NCBI RefSeq assembly: GCF_019668485.1
Contig: NZ_AP024619.1
Span: 132,501 to 196,500 of the forward strand
Origin: Gelria sp. Kuro-4
GTDB lineage: Bacteria > Bacillota > DTU030 > DUMP01
Direction: 5' to 3'
Length of the DNA stretch: 64,000 bases
The notes beneath the pieces were generated by a model that was not told where the DNA came from, searched no databases, and saw nothing but the letters and a program-made list of their open reading frames with translations. Of this stretch, positions 45,385 through 59,836 are shown in pieces. Position 1 is the first letter of the stretch. Each line of letters opens with the position of its first letter. Made by a program: the position numbers and the translations under genes.

Positions 45385-48300
45385 TCAGCGGTGCCGGGCC
45401 AAAATCACGTAGAAGCCGGGCCGGTCGAGAACCGTCTCCCCGCTCCAGGCGCTCAGGTAGGCGCCGGCGTTCACCCAGGCGTCGCGGTCGGGATCGTAGC
45501 GGTAGAGGGTGGGCGCGCCGGCGTAGTAGGCGGGATCGAGCTTGGCCTTGAGGCTCACGCTTTCCGCCAGATACGGCAGCTCCACCTGCCGGTGCCCCAC
45601 GCTGAGGCCGGTGCTCAAGCGGTAAAGCGGGGAGGCAGGGACCAGACCCGCAGGGAGCTCGCGCAGAAGGGCTGCGGCCTCCGCCCCCTGGGCTTCTTCA
45701 ATGGTGAGGGTAACCGCCGCTTGCTTTTCTTCGCTGCGGCTGAGGTCGCGCACAGGTGAGGTATAAAGGGCGCGCACGGGGAAGCTCAGGGCAAGGCGCG
45801 GCGTGGTGAGGTTAACCGTGGTGCGCCCGCTCAGGTCCGCCGCGGGCAGCACCAGGCTGAAGCGGCGCTCGCGCGCGTACTCCGGTTTGTCGAGGTCGAT
45901 GGTATAGCGCGAGCCGCCGAGCGTACCGGGCGCGATGCTCACGGCCGTGCCGCCTGCACCCCCGGCCGGGGTGACCTGGTACTCCGGTAGCTCCGGTTTG
46001 GCGCCGGGCTCGCTGTAGTCCTCATCCTTGGTGCGGGCGCTGGCGGTCATGGTCTCGCCGGAGACCCCTTCCGCGTTCACCGCGCGCACGGCAAAGTAGT
46101 AGCGGGTATCGGGCTCCAGGCCTTCGGCGTAGAAGTAGCGTATCTCCGGCTGGTCGGCCGGGGCGCCGTACGCCTTCCCCTCGCTGGTGCCGAAGAAGGT
46201 TAGGTCATCTCTATCCTGGCCCATGTAAATCTCGTAGGTGAGAGCCCCCGCGGGCGCCGTCCAGCTAAGCTCGATGGTGTTGGCACTTAAGGCGCGCGCC
46301 GTAAGGCCTGTAGGCGGCTTGGGCGGCCCGGTGAAGCTGAAGGCGTCCGGCAGGGTGAAGGTGGAACCGTCCGGGTTGGTCACGGTGACGTCCACCGCAC
46401 CCAGATCGTGTTCGGGGGTTATGGCAGTTAGTTCAGTGTCGCTCACACGCGTCACGTTTGTCGCCGGGACGTCGCCGAAGTCGACGCGGATTCCGAGGTC
46501 AAAGTTGCTTCCGGTGATGGTCACCTCTGTACCGCCGGCGGAGGGGCCGCTGGTCGGGTTAAGCGCCGTGATCTTCGGACCAGGCTTATCCTCGTAAGTA
46601 AAGGCCTGGCGCAGGCTGGCCACGGCGCCGTCCGGGTTCACCACCGTCACCGTCACCGCGCCGGCGGCGCCGGGCGGCGTGCGGCCGGTGAGCTCGGTAT
46701 CGCTTACCCAGGCTGTGTTATCGGCCAGGCGGCCGCCGAAGAACACGGCCGGGGTCTGCTCAAACCCACCACCCTGGATGGTCACCGGCGTACCGCCCTG
46801 GCTGCGGCCGGTGTTGGGTGCCACCGCCGTGAGCTTAGGCCGGCTCGTCGGTGTCGTATAAGTAAATCCCCCTGCCAATCGATCGCTCGCTCCATCCGGG
46901 TTCACCACCACCACGTCTACGGTAAGATCGCCCTGGCCGGGAGGCGCCGGCGGCACCGTGAAGGTGATGGTGGAGCCATCGACCACCTGGGCACCCTGTG
47001 CCTCCGTGCCGCCCAGGAACACCTTCGCTCCCTGGAGGAAGCCGGAACCTGTGAGCTGGGCCGGGATGTTCCCGCTGCGCGGGCCCTTGGTAGGGGCGAT
47101 GCCGTCCAGAGTGATCGCCGCCGTCTCCGCCGTGTAGGTAAAGGCGCCCGGCGCCGTGGCGGTCCCACCGTCCGGGTTGATCACGGAGATGTCCACCGGA
47201 CCGGCCTTTTCCACCGCCGGCGCCGTCACGCGCACGTACGCGGAGCCGGCAGGGCCCGGCCCATACACTTCCACCGGCACAGTCTGTCCTCCGAAAAGCA
47301 CAGTCAGCCCTTCCTGGAAATTCGTGCCCCAGATGTCCACCTTCGTGCCGCCGGTCACCGGTCCCTGGTTCGGAATTACGGCCGTGATGCTCGGCTGAAG
47401 GAGGGGGTCGGGAATATAGGTGAACCCTTGCTCCATGGTGTAACTCGCACCGTCTGGATTAAGCACGGTCACATCCACCGTGCGGTCGGCCGGACCGGCG
47501 GGCGTTATGGCAACGAGCGCTGTGCTGCTCAGCCAGGTGACCTTTTGCGCCGGGTTGCCGTCAAAGTACACCTTGGCCCCCTGGGCGAAATCGCTCCCGG
47601 TCAGCAGCACCGGCGTACCCCCGCCGGCCTGTCCCCGGCTGGGGGAAAGGCCGCCGATTTGCGGGCGCGTGCTGGTGCGGCGGTAGGTAAAGGCACCGGC
47701 CAGGGTCACCTGCGCCGCATCGGGATTGATGACGGTAACGTCCACCGGTCCCTCTTGGTCCGCCGGCGGGGTGAGAACTTTGAGGGTGGTCCCGTACTCA
47801 TCGGCGTCCTCGACCGGCTTACCTCGGCTGTCGGTAAGAGACTGCACCTCAGCAGGCTGATTGCCGAAAAGCACCTTGGGATACTCGACTTCGCCACCTT
47901 CGCTAAGGCGCACGCGGAAATCCACGCCTTTAACGGTCACCAACGTACCGCCGGCGAGGCTCCCTTCCAGCGGGAAAACCGAGTGGATCTCCGGGAGGGA
48001 ACCAGGGGCGACGTACGTGAAGCCACCCTCTTTTTGGGCCTGCCCGTAATCCGGGTTGATCACCGTCACGTCGACACTGCCTTTTTCCCCGGGCGGGGTT
48101 GTCGCCTCGAGCTTGCCGTAATCCCGCCACGTGACTTTGCTTGCCGGTTTGTAGCCGAAGTACACTGCGGCCCCTTGGCGGAAGTCCGACCCGGTGATGG
48201 TCACGACGGTACCTCCCGCTGTGGTCCCTCGCTCCGGATCGATGGCCAGAACGGTAGGCGCTGTTGCCGGTACGCGGTAGGTGAACCCGCCCGGAAGCGT

Positions 48301-51156
48301 CACCCGGCCGCTGTCCGGGCTGCCGTCCCGCCCGGCGTCCGGGTTCACGAGGGTTACGTCCACCGGTCCGGCTCCTTTCGCAGCCGGCGGCGTTTTGGCC
48401 GCCACTTCCGTGGGCGAGATGAAAACAACGCGTCCGGCAGCCCGGCTGCCGAAATACACCGTGGGACCAACGAGTTCCGGTTGGCCGCCGTTTTCTCTCT
48501 CTTCCTGCAGGAACCCCGTGCCCTTAATCGTCACCCAGGTGCCGCCATCAATAGTCCCTGCCGCCGGAGTGACGGAAGTAATCTTCGGGACGCTGATGTA
48601 CGTAAACTTCCCATCGACAAAGGTACTGCCGCCGTCTTTATTCGTCACCGTGATCCGCGCCGGCCCGGGGTCGCCGGAGGGAGTGAGGCAGGTGAGCTGG
48701 ACCACCGTTTGGTTTTCATAAACCTCACCGGTAACCGTAAGCTTAACGTTGGTAGCCGGCCTGCCGCCCACTAGGACCGTTGCTCCCTCTTCGAACCCCA
48801 GGCCGGTGATGGTTAAACTTGTCCCCCCGCGGCCGTCGCCAAAGGCCGGCTCAACCGCCCGAATCGTCGGCCGGCTCTTGATGGTGTAATAAGTAAACGC
48901 CCGCAAAAGTTTGCGCTCGCCGAAGGGGTTGCGTACGGTTACGTCTTTTACGCCTTCGGTATTCGCCGGCAGGATCACGCGGATTATGTCCAGCCCGTTT
49001 TCCACCGGGATGATGTCTTTACCCTCGGTGGCTTCTTCGCTGCCGAAGTAGATGTGCGTTTTCTCCAGCCTGAGCTGCTTTTCTGCCTCGGTCAGCTCGC
49101 TTTCGGGTTTATTTATCCAGTTGAAATTCTCCCCGATGATTTCAACTTTAGTTCCGCCGGCGGTCGGTCCCTCCGCCGGCCGAACGCTGGAGAGGTACAG
49201 GTTGTTCCCCCGGTAGATAAACCCGCCTTCTTTTTGGGCGATGCCGGGCCTCTGCCCTGCCGGTGCCGGGTTCACCAGCCAGACGGGAACCGAACCGGGA
49301 ACGTTGCCGGGGGCAGGTGGCGCCGTGACCGTAAGCTCGAAGACAGGGTCACTGCTGTAAACTGCGTCGGCCACGCGCATATCCTGCCGGGCGGCCAGGT
49401 ACTGGTCGGTCGGCTCGGGGCCGAAGTAAACCTTTACATCCTTGGTCAGGCGCCGCGCATAAATGACCACGGTAGAACCGCCCGCCACCGGCCCCTCGGG
49501 GCTCAGCGTCTCTACATTATGGATAGGGAGAACTGCTGCACCGTTCAGCTGGTCGGCGAATTCGGGAACGGGGACGGGCTTGTAGAAGGTAAAGCCGCTC
49601 GGCAGTTCCGCCACTTCCGTAACCCAGTTGCCGTCGATGGGCCGATAAACCAGAAGGGACACCGTAACCGACACTTGGTCTTCGTCCGAAGCGAAGATGG
49701 GTGTGGTGACCGTCATGGTGCTGGCGTCGCTCTGAATTACGCCCGTTCCCTCAAGCTCCTTGCCGCCGAAGTATACCTTGACCGTGCCGTCGTCGGCCGT
49801 AGGAAAGTTGATGCCTTGAAGCACTACGGTGGTTCGCTCACCCATGGGCCCCTGGGCAGGCGACACACCCGTTATAACGAGGGCTTTCTCCGGCTTTTGA
49901 TACAAGAAGCCCTGCTGCCGCACCGCATACCCGTTTGGCTCGGGGTTGGCCACCTTGACGTCCTGCCAACCGTCCAACCCGCCGGGCGCAGGCGGGGCAA
50001 TGACTTCGATCTCCTGACCGTTCTTAACGGCAACGTTTTTCGCTTCCTGAGCGCCAAAAAACACCCTGGCCCCGCTGATGAAGTTGGTTCCCGTAATGGT
50101 CACCACGTACCCCCCGGCTGTAGAACCGGCGTTAGGCGAAATGGAAGCGATAGTGGGGGTGACAGGTTCGCTGGTGTAGACAAACCCGCCGGGTAATCTG
50201 GATTCCACGGTTTGCGCCTTGGTGTTGGTGTAACTTATCACCAGATCGGCAGCGCCCACGCCTCCCGGCGTTTTCGCCTTGATCAGATTATCATCTAGCA
50301 CCTGGTAGTAGCCAGCATTGAGGGGACCTGTATCTGCCCTGGTAAGCTTCTTCCCTCCGAGGGAAACATATGTTTGACCTTGGTCAAGGTCTGGGTTACT
50401 AGGCAAGAGGAGAAAGAATCCCTGGCCGCGGATTTCCACTTCGGTGCCGCCGGAGGTCGGACCGTAGTTAGGCGTAATGCTGGTGACATACGGGGCCTCG
50501 ACGTACTCAAAACCCTCTGGCTTAGAAACGTCGGTAGAGTAGAACTGGTATGATCCTCCATCGGGGTTGATGACCTTCACCGGCTGCAGCCCGGCGGAAC
50601 CGGCGGAGGTAACCGCAGTAATAACGTGGGTGCCGTCCGCACCGTGGGCAACGTCGGTCACGCGGGCGTTGGCATTCCCAACCTGAACGGTGACAAGGTA
50701 ATTGCCCTGAGCGTCGCGACGGTTGTCGAACTCTGAGCCGGTAATGGTTATCACGGTCCCGCCCTTGACATGGCCATAGGCGGGGGATACGCTCTTTATC
50801 GATGGTGCGCTCTTCCGGTAATACACGGTGTACGTGGCAGCCTGGCCATCCGGGTTCGTCACCTTGAGGGTGGTCGCACCAACGTCTCCGTAAGGAGCCA
50901 CTGCTTCAATGCTCTTACCGTCCGTTGAAACCTGGATAATTTTTTCTGCAGGCCGGCCGCCGAAAGTCACCGTCACTTCTTGGGCAAAGCCGCTACCGGA
51001 AATAGTTACGATCGTTCCGCCCGCCGCAGAGAGGTAGCCATCTTGTGCTGTTATGCCGGTAATCTCTGGCCCCGCGGCCCGGACCGGGGGTGGGGAGAAG
51101 AGCGGGAAAAGGAGAAAGAAGGCCAGAGCCAAAGCTGTGAGTTTGTGCGCGCGCAT
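45385..51156 (-). CDS. Giant secreted protein with 16 IPT/TIG repeats and a fibronectin III domain
   Basis: A 1923-residue surface protein. Signal peptide LTALALAFFLLFPLFSPPPVRA (5-26, shortened here as LALAFFLLFPLF). I count 16 consecutive IPT/TIG domains, each starting like ITSVTPAAGTIDGGTWVTIK and ending with a VTVINPDG-type strand plus GGFTY. They are followed by one fibronectin type III domain (PPTGLTARALSANTIELSWT) and a 300-residue C-terminal domain. It has no SLH motif, LPXTG or membrane anchor, so it probably associates with the SLH proteins encoded directly after it. A role in adhesion or as an S-layer-associated fibre is inference. ATG at 51156 after GGGGGTG. Confidence 0.85.
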   Translation of the reverse strand: MRAHKLTALALAFFLLFPLFSPPPVRAAGPEITGITAQDGYLSAAGGTIVTISGSGFAQEVTVTFGGRPAEKIIQVSTDGKSIEAVAPYGDVGATTLKVTNPDGQAATYTVYYRKSAPSIKSVSPAYGHVKGGTVITITGSEFDNRRDAQGNYLVTVQVGNANARVTDVAHGADGTHVITAVTSAGSAGLQPVKVINPDGGSYQFYSTDVSKPEGFEYVEAPYVTSITPNYGPTSGGTEVEIRGQGFFLLLPSNPDLDQGQTYVSLGGKKLTRADTGPLNAGYYQVLDDNLIKAKTPGGVGAADLVISYTNTKAQTVESRLPGGFVYTSEPVTPTIASISPNAGSTAGGYVVTITGTNFISGARVFFGAQEAKNVAVKNGQEIEVIAPPAPGGLDGWQDVKVANPEPNGYAVRQQGFLYQKPEKALVITGVSPAQGPMGERTTVVLQGINFPTADDGTVKVYFGGKELEGTGVIQSDASTMTVTTPIFASDEDQVSVTVSLLVYRPIDGNWVTEVAELPSGFTFYKPVPVPEFADQLNGAAVLPIHNVETLSPEGPVAGGSTVVIYARRLTKDVKVYFGPEPTDQYLAARQDMRVADAVYSSDPVFELTVTAPPAPGNVPGSVPVWLVNPAPAGQRPGIAQKEGGFIYRGNNLYLSSVRPAEGPTAGGTKVEIIGENFNWINKPESELTEAEKQLRLEKTHIYFGSEEATEGKDIIPVENGLDIIRVILPANTEGVKDVTVRNPFGERKLLRAFTYYTIKSRPTIRAVEPAFGDGRGGTSLTITGLGFEEGATVLVGGRPATNVKLTVTGEVYENQTVVQLTCLTPSGDPGPARITVTNKDGGSTFVDGKFTYISVPKITSVTPAAGTIDGGTWVTIKGTGFLQEERENGGQPELVGPTVYFGSRAAGRVVFISPTEVAAKTPPAAKGAGPVDVTLVNPDAGRDGSPDSGRVTLPGGFTYRVPATAPTVLAIDPERGTTAGGTVVTITGSDFRQGAAVYFGYKPASKVTWRDYGKLEATTPPGEKGSVDVTVINPDYGQAQKEGGFTYVAPGSLPEIHSVFPLEGSLAGGTLVTVKGVDFRVRLSEGGEVEYPKVLFGNQPAEVQSLTDSRGKPVEDADEYGTTLKVLTPPADQEGPVDVTVINPDAAQVTLAGAFTYRRTSTRPQIGGLSPSRGQAGGGTPVLLTGSDFAQGAKVYFDGNPAQKVTWLSSTALVAITPAGPADRTVDVTVLNPDGASYTMEQGFTYIPDPLLQPSITAVIPNQGPVTGGTKVDIWGTNFQEGLTVLFGGQTVPVEVYGPGPAGSAYVRVTAPAVEKAGPVDISVINPDGGTATAPGAFTYTAETAAITLDGIAPTKGPRSGNIPAQLTGSGFLQGAKVFLGGTEAQGAQVVDGSTITFTVPPAPPGQGDLTVDVVVVNPDGASDRLAGGFTYTTPTSRPKLTAVAPNTGRSQGGTPVTIQGGGFEQTPAVFFGGRLADNTAWVSDTELTGRTPPGAAGAVTVTVVNPDGAVASLRQAFTYEDKPGPKITALNPTSGPSAGGTEVTITGSNFDLGIRVDFGDVPATNVTRVSDTELTAITPEHDLGAVDVTVTNPDGSTFTLPDAFSFTGPPKPPTGLTARALSANTIELSWTAPAGALTYEIYMGQDRDDLTFFGTSEGKAYGAPADQPEIRYFYAEGLEPDTRYYFAVRAVNAEGVSGETMTASARTKDEDYSEPGAKPELPEYQVTPAGGAGGTAVSIAPGTLGGSRYTIDLDKPEYARERRFSLVLPAADLSGRTTVNLTTPRLALSFPVRALYTSPVRDLSRSEEKQAAVTLTIEEAQGAEAAALLRELPAGLVPASPLYRLSTGLSVGHRQVELPYLAESVSLKAKLDPAYYAGAPTLYRYDPDRDAWVNAGAYLSAWSGETVLDRPGFYVILARHR

Positions 51157-57123: not shown

Positions 57124-58599
57124 ATGTTGAGCGCAGCCGCAAGAAGCTGGGCAGACGAACGTTTGGAAAGGATCTTGAAGCACGAAGCTGAGGAGAAGCG
57201 GCGGGATTTTATCGATGACGGCAGGATCGAAGCGCTTCTCGAAGAGACGGCCGATCCGGCCAAGGAAAAAGTGCGCGATGTCCTGGCCAAAGCCAGGAGC
57301 TTGGCAGGGCTTAAGCCGGAGGAAGCGGCCATACTTCTGAATAACACGAATGAAGACCTTTGGCAGGAGACGTACGCCGTCGCCCGCGAAATTAAACAAG
57401 AAATCTACGGCAACCGGATCGTGCTCTTCGCTCCTCTCTACATCTCCAGCCCCTGTGTCAATGACTGCATTTACTGCGGCTTCCGGCACTCCAATCCCCA
57501 GGTCCAGGGTAAAACGCTCAGCTGGGACCAGCTGGAGAAAGAGGTCCAAGCCCTGGTCGGGAAGGGACATAAGCGGTTGATAGTTGTCTACGGCGAGCAC
57601 CCCGCCAGCGATATAGACTTCATGTGTGAAAGCATAAGAAGGATTTATGCCATCCGCAAAGGAACCGGCGAAATCCGCCGCGTCAATGTCAATGCCGCGC
57701 CCCTTTTTGTCGCTGAGTACCGGCAGTTGAAGCAGGTAGGCATTGGTACCTTCCAGGTGTTCCAGGAGACGTATCACCATGGCACTTACGCCCGCCTGCA
57801 TCCGCGCGGCACCTTAAAGCATGTTTATACCTGGCGCCTCTTTTCCCTTCACCGGGCCGAAGAGGCGGGTATTGATGACGTAGCCATCGGCGCCCTGTTC
57901 GGGCTTTACAAGTGGCGCTTTGAGGTGCTGGGGCTGCTTTACCACGCGGAGGACCTGGAACGCGAATTCGGTGTCGGCCCGCACACCATCTCTTTCCCGC
58001 GCCTGCAGCCGGCCGCCAATACACCCTACGCCACCGCCTCGCCCTACCTCGTATCAGATGAAGAGCTGAAAAAGATCGTGGCGGTTTTAAGATGCGCCGT
58101 GCCTTATACGGGGCTCATCCTCACCGCCCGTGAACGCCCTGAGGTGCGCCGGCAGGTGATACCCCTGGGCGTGTCCCAGGTGGATGCCGGCTCGCGCATC
58201 GCCATCGGCGGGTACGAAGAAATGGAACACGAGCACATCCCCGACCGGGAGCAGTTCCAGCTGGGCGATACCCGTTCGCTGGACGATTTCATCCGGGAGC
58301 TGTGCGAAGACGGCTACATCCCTTCTTTCTGCACCGCGGGCTACCGCTGCGGCCGGACCGGCGAACACTTCATGTCCCTGGCGAAAAAGGGTCTCGTCAA
58401 GAACTTTTGCACCCCAAACGCCGTCCTCACCTTCAAGGAATACCTCCTCGACTATGCCTCCCCGGCAACCCGCCAGGCAGGTGAAGGAGTGATACAGCAT
58501 TACTTGGCAGCGCTGGAGGCCGGCCGGCCGGCGCAGGCGCAGGCCGTCCACGAACGGCTCCAGCGCTTGGAGGCGGGCGAACGTGACCTCTACTTCTAG
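57124..58599 (+). CDS. HydG-like radical SAM protein with altered auxiliary-cluster motif
   Basis: A 491-residue homolog of HydG, the tyrosine lyase that makes the Fe-CO-CN unit of [FeFe] hydrogenase, related to ThiH. The radical-SAM motif CVNDCIYC is intact (Cys111, 115, 118). The barrel matches HydG (TFQVFQETYHHGTYARLHP, ALFGLYKWRFEVLGLLYHAE, GVGPHTISFPRLQPA). The C-terminal auxiliary-cluster motif, normally Cys-x2-Cys-x22-Cys, reads CTAGYRCGRTG ... NFC: Cys403 and Cys429 are in place, the middle one is Gly406, and Cys409 replaces the usual leucine. ATG at 57124 after AGGAGGG. No hydE or hydF is nearby, so it may be a HydG paralog with another role. Confidence 0.82.
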   Translation: MLSAAARSWADERLERILKHEAEEKRRDFIDDGRIEALLEETADPAKEKVRDVLAKARSLAGLKPEEAAILLNNTNEDLWQETYAVAREIKQEIYGNRIVLFAPLYISSPCVNDCIYCGFRHSNPQVQGKTLSWDQLEKEVQALVGKGHKRLIVVYGEHPASDIDFMCESIRRIYAIRKGTGEIRRVNVNAAPLFVAEYRQLKQVGIGTFQVFQETYHHGTYARLHPRGTLKHVYTWRLFSLHRAEEAGIDDVAIGALFGLYKWRFEVLGLLYHAEDLEREFGVGPHTISFPRLQPAANTPYATASPYLVSDEELKKIVAVLRCAVPYTGLILTARERPEVRRQVIPLGVSQVDAGSRIAIGGYEEMEHEHIPDREQFQLGDTRSLDDFIRELCEDGYIPSFCTAGYRCGRTGEHFMSLAKKGLVKNFCTPNAVLTFKEYLLDYASPATRQAGEGVIQHYLAALEAGRPAQAQAVHERLQRLEAGERDLYF

Positions 58600-58897
58600 C
58601 CGACAGCAAAGCCCGCCTTCCGGCCGGTCAAGCCCACCAGCAGCGGCCCTGAGGCCGATTGCGGCGCAGATCTGCACCCGCTATCCTATTGCCAAGGCCT
58701 ACTTCGCCCAGGCCCTGGGCCGTCGTTTGCACTTCCTGACCAGGGCGGGGGAAGAAACCTATTTGCCTGCCGTCAAAATCCACATTAAAGGTGATCTCTA
58801 CCTTTTTTGCGAACCCCGCCGGGAGCTGGGGAGCGAAGTCTACGCGCAGTTGGTCCAGGAAGTAAAGGACGCACTCGAGCTTTGGCGGGGAAATTAG
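58583..58897 (+). CDS. Small protein of unknown function downstream of the HydG-like gene
   Basis: A 104-residue soluble protein, not recognised. After a polar Ser/Pro-rich N-terminus it forms an alpha/beta domain (IAAQICTRYPIAKAYFAQAL, YLPAVKIHIKGDLYLF, SEVYAQLVQEVKDALELW). The GTG start lies inside the end of the HydG-like gene (17-nt overlap), with GAGGCGGG upstream, so translation is coupled and a joint function is likely. A GC-rich terminator follows at 58902-58935. Confidence 0.6.
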   Translation: MTSTSSRQQSPPSGRSSPPAAALRPIAAQICTRYPIAKAYFAQALGRRLHFLTRAGEETYLPAVKIHIKGDLYLFCEPRRELGSEVYAQLVQEVKDALELWRGN

Positions 58898-58935: not shown

Positions 58936-58988
58936 CGCACCATGATCCCGCCACGGGAAACCCCCAGGTGTGGCCTGGGGGTTGTTTA

Positions 58989-59017
58989 TTGCCAGCTATA
59001 ACCTTCTCTGGTATAAT
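58989..59017 (+). promoter_or_regulatory. Promoter of the 59066 gene
   Basis: TTGCCA (58989-58994), 17 bp, TATAAT (59012-59017), directly after two terminators. Confidence 0.85.
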
Positions 59018-59065
59018 TATGATTACGGCGTCTCTGCCGGGTATTACTCTGTAGGAGGGAAGATA

Positions 59066-59836
59066 TTGCTTCTAAGCGAGTTTGCATTCGTCCGGCCCGA
59101 TATTATCAAGAAGGTTGCTGAGTTTGCCGTTAAGGAAAAGTGGGGCGAAAACGAAGAAGACTTAAGTATTCTTCAAAAGTACATTGATTACAACTTTGAA
59201 ATCGCTTATGAACAGAACCTGATTAAATTCGCCGAGGACAAATCTTATTGTCTCTGGCGCGTAGGGCACCTGGTGACCGACCGGGGCGAGCCTATCACCA
59301 TCCTTTTTGTTAAGAACAGGTTGGAAAACAAGCAGCCTTACTTGGCCCTCTTTGTTTTTAAGGGTATAGAATTCGATGCCAAGGTTGGGGACAGCACCGT
59401 GCGGGAAAAAGCGCCCAAGGCACCGCGCTACAAGTTCCCCAGTTATCATGCCAATTACAAGCTCAACTTCAACTTTGACCACTACCTGAGCGACCACGAA
59501 TCACGCGTGGCAGCGGCTTTGCCCAACCTTACCTCTTACCAGCGGTACCTGATCGTACTCGGCGCCATCCAGACAGCACACCTGATTGCCTCGCAGGTGG
59601 CCGTACCGCAGTGGTTCCGGGACAAGAACGCCTCTGTCGGCGGATATAAGTGGCTGCTGCCCCTGCGCATCACCGACCCGGACCTGTCCAAGAAGCCGAA
59701 TCTGGTAGCTGCCCTCGACCCGGATAACGACAGCCGCGAGTACCTGGTACGCACCCTGCTCCCGCCCGAGTGGGCTTACGCCAACGCTCGGGCGGTGATC
59801 AGCAGTATCGACGCCAAGATCAGCCACTGGGTATAG
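59066..59836 (+). CDS. Uncharacterised protein, possibly DUF3825-like
   Basis: A 256-residue soluble protein that I can only place tentatively. The segment NYKLNFNFDHYLSDHESRVAAALPN resembles the core of DUF3825 proteins, whose function is unknown. The N-terminal part (FAFVRPDIIKKVAEFAV, YIDYNFEIAYEQNLIKFAED, CLWRVGHLVTDRGEPITILF) looks like a small alpha/beta ligand- or nucleic-acid-binding unit. TTG at 59066 after GTAGGAGGG; the longer open frame starts upstream of the promoter and is not used. It is a monocistronic gene, AT-richer than its left neighbours. Confidence 0.5.
   Translation: MLLSEFAFVRPDIIKKVAEFAVKEKWGENEEDLSILQKYIDYNFEIAYEQNLIKFAEDKSYCLWRVGHLVTDRGEPITILFVKNRLENKQPYLALFVFKGIEFDAKVGDSTVREKAPKAPRYKFPSYHANYKLNFNFDHYLSDHESRVAAALPNLTSYQRYLIVLGAIQTAHLIASQVAVPQWFRDKNASVGGYKWLLPLRITDPDLSKKPNLVAALDPDNDSREYLVRTLLPPEWAYANARAVISSIDAKISHWV

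Follow-up and report, generated by a model that had tools for sequence, protein, structure and literature searches.

The window, a 64,000-nucleotide stretch of DNA analysed as a whole, carries a hydG gene on the forward strand (57124..58599), an intact ATG-to-TAG reading frame of 491 aa. The encoded protein scored 505.9 bits against TIGR03955, the NCBI equivalog profile for HydG (cut-off 312.15), and 260.3 bits against the ThiH profile TIGR02351 (cut-off 380), which excludes an identity as 2-iminoacetate synthase (ThiH). ThiH is also not known to have the C-terminal cluster domain of HydG, which is present here. The radical-SAM CX3CX2C motif (C111-C115-C118; 57454..57477, +) is evident from the sequence, with Cys at these positions in 105 of 106 aligned HydGs and a gap in the remaining one. 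His274 (57943..57945, +) is invariant in a 75-sequence alignment and corresponds to the His of LYHA in 4wcx; we take it to be the counterpart of His265 (T. italicus numbering), which binds the dangler iron. The nearest solved relatives by sequence are two HydG structures, and an AlphaFold2 model built with 75 homologues (pLDDT 95) matched 4wcx with a TM of 0.98 (normalised to 4wcx) at 51% identity. Directly behind, a second gene (58583..58897, +) encodes a small protein of 104 aa; it starts at a GTG within hydG, overlaps it by 17 nt and is preceded by GGAGG, so that the overlapping 104-residue gene listed in the first-pass annotation is real. A DUF3825 protein (58970-59836, +; Pfam E 7e-22) begins just behind this pair. 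Elsewhere in the window, a 1923-aa protein (45385-51156, −) apparently holds, as judged by eye, many IPT/TIG-like repeats and a fibronectin-like stretch towards its end.

The pattern CX2CX22C is commonly taken as the HydG signature, with its cysteines considered indispensable for holding the [4Fe-4S]-Fe cluster at the synthon site. These three C-terminal cysteines are the protein ligands of the auxiliary cluster, while His265 binds the fifth iron. The window HydG departs from C-x2-C-x22-C and reads PSFC403TAG406YRC409GRTGEHFM...NFC429TPN. Cys403 (58330..58332, +) and Cys429 (58408..58410, +) are present and in register with C394 and C420 of the T. italicus (Ti) protein, and the middle residue is Gly406 (GGC; 58339..58341, +), where canonical HydGs have a Cys (Ti C397). 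A relocated Cys409 (58348..58350, +) follows three residues later. Alignment to 4wcx thus agrees with the first-pass description of two cysteines in register, a glycine in the middle and a new Cys409. That description also had Cys409 standing in place of Leu; Leu is among the canonical residues there, but this position varies (E, A, S, L, K, T). The other motif residues (C403, T404, Y407, R408, R411, T412, G413 and C429) are invariant or nearly so in the 75-sequence alignment. In the AlphaFold2 model, residues 405-408 form one helical turn, 409 comes right after it, and the next helix starts from 413. Because the departure is kept in a 92%-identical relative (L011/G002) and recurs in the phylum, it is neither a sequencing error nor chance.

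We further surveyed the hydrogenase machinery of the window's genome, which is complete (single contig, 2.88 Mb). A single HydG match was found genome-wide, the hydG at 190 kb, together with one HydE (349 bits, at about 961-962 kb) and one HydF (541 bits), whose gene adjoins hydE at about 961 kb. Six genes fall into PF02906 (Fe_hyd_lg_C), two of which contain the full H-cluster motifs (TSC[CS]P.W / MPC..K..E / E.M.C..GC..GGG). It is true, as had been noted, that hydE, hydF and hydrogenase genes are absent from the window, yet all three are present elsewhere in the genome. The protein had been read as a possible spare paralog, but the genome-wide check for a second, canonical HydG returned this HydG only. 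A sole HydG beside an active [FeFe] hydrogenase had been named as evidence against that reading, and the genome pairs its only HydG with hydE, hydF and two full-motif hydrogenases, as predicted from their genes. With one HydG, one HydE, one HydF and hydrogenases, the window HydG is the sole candidate for making the H-cluster synthon. A decaying or non-functional HydG with random ligand loss might explain why a Cys is missing from a motif that is reported to be essential in mutagenesis of other HydGs. We nevertheless regard decay as extremely improbable: the reading frame is intact, all other catalytic residues are invariant, the identity with the second species extends through the motif, and H-cluster hydrogenases are still in the genome.

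The occurrence of the variant was surveyed with a search pattern that left residues 406 and 409 free, and gave matches in 99 of the 399 phylum genomes sampled; about half of the HydG-bearing genomes fall outside the pattern (S-Y-C-T among those missed), and the frequencies given here refer to pattern-matching HydGs only. A residue other than Cys occupied position 406 in 23 genomes of this 399-genome sample (eight Gly with C409, six Asp with C409 and nine Gly without C409). A new Cys at 414 was found in three of the last nine, and also in L017 from another collection. These Cys414 HydGs (L132 4613-6121, −; L133 6791-8290, +; L131 7845-9371, −; L017 7297-8772, +), presumably from Candidatus Desulforudis-type genomes, share the motif CTAGYR[AST]GRTGC. 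In the tree set, C409 was present in 14 of the 23 HydGs without C406 versus 1 of the 80 with it (Fisher P = 1.6e-10, relatives treated as independent), and C409 or C414 in 17/23 versus 1/80. Within the Syntrophomonas class, 24 of 31 motif-bearing genomes lacked C406, and C409 occurred in 22 of these 24 versus none of the seven keeping C406. An independent-pairs test of C406 loss against the replacement Cys had two usable pairs, too few for significance. The earlier suggestion that a shifted Cys could ligate the cluster with altered geometry predicts that Cys409 goes with loss of Cys406, and such a statistical tie is seen, in a shift that is recurrent. Among the canonical HydGs of the set, L048 325-1764 (+; genome G371) is the only one that combines Cys406 with Cys409 (CTACYRCG), and G371 has a second HydG.

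All 23 variant genomes encode HydF, HydE and Fe_hyd_lg_C proteins, and the variant is the only HydG (E <= 1e-70) in 22 of them, the exception being G054 with a second, canonical HydG. In many variant genomes hydG and the small reading frame are followed by hydF, and in some a hydrogenase gene lies near by. D406 and G406 swap between close relatives, and two genera (g255 and g280) each include one species with the Asp/Cys409 motif and another with the canonical one, as if both forms did the same job.

E. coli is not known to have a HydG. Genome G027 is Syntrophomonas wolfei, since the primers that Losey et al. 2017 (PMC5626996) published for their cloning each agree with locus L127 without mismatch over 18-31 nt. 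The matches bracket hydG-ORF-hydE and hyd1ABC, and the enclosed HydG reads CTADYRCG, that is, Asp406 with Cys409. In that study, S. wolfei HydE, HydG, a 348-bp ORF between them and HydF were co-expressed in E. coli, from which active Hyd1ABC was purified (94.5 U/mg for H2-dependent NAD+ reduction, 6.6 U/mg for H2 production from NADH, 29.2 Fe per enzyme with 30 expected; PMC5626996). HydE, HydF and HydG are all required for hydrogenase activity, as stated in a review (PMC6212873). The activity of Hyd1ABC made in such a host, together with this requirement for all three maturases, indicates that HydG can work without the middle Cys. The accessible sections of Losey et al. 2017 (PMC5626996) contain neither a minus-HydG control nor a comment on the motif change, and the portion of the literature that we searched holds no report of it. 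Finding the motif to be common among proven HydGs had been put forward as an argument against a separate subfamily, and [DG]-x2-C is present in the S. wolfei HydG, a member of a maturation set that works by that account. As a relative with the same Cys loss belongs to such a set, CX2CX22C as written is not a valid requirement for HydG.

HydG trees were built without columns 404-415. All variants were placed inside one HydG clade of 42 rows, interspersed with canonical members, and forcing them into a single variant clade was 64 log units worse (AU test, P = 0.0038). Four changes at position 406 were inferred on the best tree and three to four in bootstraps, and regains may be among them. Among the variant lineages are Syntrophomonas, the genus of the window together with its sister group, and presumably also Desulforudis, Acetohalobium and Tepidanaerobacter. 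These results bear directly on the proposal of the first-pass annotation that the gene represents a separate radical-SAM tyrosine lyase subfamily, a HydG paralog with another product. The changed ligand motif and the distance of hydG (190 kb) from hydEF (961 kb) would fit such a paralog. However, the variants are not one clade, so they do not form a separate subfamily; moreover, the gene is the only HydG of its genome, the full [FeFe] pathway accompanies the variant in 23/23 genomes, and several of them have hydF and a hydrogenase gene next to hydG. The S. wolfei variant was also used in maturing an active hydrogenase (PMC5626996). We therefore consider a separate subfamily very improbable and this reading largely refuted. 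What stands of the first-pass annotation is the Cys shift, which is real, recurrent and tied to loss of the middle Cys, whereas its paralog or subfamily interpretation does not.

In canonical HydG, tyrosine is split at the radical-SAM cluster, and a C-terminal [4Fe-4S] cluster that carries a labile fifth iron is the site where Fe(CO)2(CN)Cys is built (PMC6212873). We propose that the window HydG is the one functional HydG of its genome and that the lost ligand equivalent to Ti Cys397 is most likely replaced by Cys409 as third thiolate, an explanation that we hold to be probable as a whole. The enzyme would cleave tyrosine to CO and CN- at its radical-SAM cluster and assemble the Fe(CO)2(CN)Cys synthon on its auxiliary [4Fe-4S]-Fe cluster, held by C403, C429 and Cys409, and HydE and HydF would then pass the synthon on to the [FeFe]-hydrogenases of the cell. 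Judging from the sequence pattern, Cys409 most likely takes over from Cys406 as the third cluster ligand, and would thus bind iron. Retention of the other motif residues and the modelled turn at 405-408, with 409 just after it, likewise point to 409, or to 414 in the sister lineage, as the most likely third thiolate. In neighbouring lineages Cys414 may play the role of Cys409, and a few have no obvious replacement. By analogy with S. wolfei, the G406/C409 form of the window presumably works as well, the relative in the active system having Asp406, not Gly406.

Another possibility is that a two-cysteine auxiliary site is tolerated, with C403, C429 and a non-Cys or exogenous ligand, and that C409 and C414 are incidental. 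Neither of these cysteines is found in six variants (L096, L097, L098, L130, L134 and L135), five of which are the sole HydG of their genomes beside HydE, HydF and hydrogenases, including L096 7829-9340 (−), L135 6689-8296 (+), L097 7936-9369 (+) and L098 7793-9226 (−), all with Gly406. A third thiolate near 406 may therefore not be strictly needed, and the interchange of D406 and G406 in close relatives fits the same idea. Nevertheless, loss of C406 is strongly tied to a Cys at 409 or 414 (17/23 vs 1/80), and the Syntrophomonas class shows the same for C409 (22/24 vs 0/7). The six variants without a replacement also still have other candidate ligands (C394/C398 in L097, L098 and L134; C394 in L130; H414 in L096 and L135). 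On balance, we think tolerance of a two-thiolate site in this HydG clade rather unlikely and prefer Cys409 as the replacement ligand.

The small gene behind hydG belongs to a family that is undescribed. A profile search yielded 28 members including that of the window (27 homologues), each directly behind hydG and mostly overlapping it, and no other occurrence was detected in the 1.3 Mb of loci searched. Homologues follow hydG in L012-L014, L017, L096-L099, L106, L107, L110, L111, L118-L121, L124-L128, L130-L133 and L135. The family is confined to one HydG clade, where it stands behind 20 of the 23 variants and eight canonical members, including those of Coprothermobacter and a Thermotogota genome. 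Its proteins have about 80-120 aa and start inside or just past the 3' end of hydG. The S. wolfei member is SWOL_RS05185; it is the 348-bp ORF of Losey et al. (PMC5626996), a length that agrees with reading the L127 member as 115 codons. Comparison of the window's protein with Pfam and NCBIfam gave no family match, and a profile search found no solved relative. Its AlphaFold2 model (pLDDT 87) consists of a helix, four strands and a helix; the best hit of a fold search with this model, a Roadblock-type MglB (E 0.12, TM 0.60), was not significant. Only G46 and R48 are invariant in the family alignment, which contains no conserved Cys, so provision of the missing Cys in trans was rejected. A tie to the loss of Cys406 is also unsupported, given that the gene stands behind eight canonical HydGs too and is absent beside three variants. 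The small protein might hold or load the dangler iron, or dock HydG to the GTPase HydF. We tentatively suggest, as a possibility we do not favour strongly, that HydG of this clade has a differently coordinated cluster (with a relocated thiolate or two thiolates) and that the small protein acts as an unrecognised maturation factor partnering HydG. The family is thus a candidate extra maturation factor in H2-handling anaerobes, including the syntroph S. wolfei.

Together, these findings indicate that HydG does not require the textbook motif, given the active hydrogenase made with the S. wolfei HydG (PMC5626996). Repeated loss of the middle ligand, with Cys at 409, at 414 or at neither, provides natural variants for probing cluster coordination, and these are suited to tests of how coordination governs dangler binding and synthon release. 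For annotators, HydG genes without the middle Cys should not be called defective.

Among known systems, ThiH shares the radical-SAM tyrosine lyase core with the window HydG. The canonical T. italicus HydG (PDB 4WCX) has the same fold, radical-SAM motif and C-terminal domain, and both proteins contain the putative dangler His and the C403/C429 equivalents; the T. italicus protein differs in having Cys397 where the window HydG has Gly406, and Met400 where it has Cys409. The HydGs of L131-L133 and L017 form the sister group of the window HydG and share Gly406 and the same small downstream gene, but their replacement Cys is at 414 rather than at 409. The S. wolfei HydG (SWOL_RS05190) resembles that of the window in lacking the middle Cys, in having Cys at 409 and in the homologous small ORF behind it, whereas it has Asp406 in place of Gly406, with 55% identity between the two. 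In S. wolfei, hydG-small ORF-hydE adjoins hyd1ABC, while hydG of the window stands apart from hydE/hydF and the hydrogenase genes.
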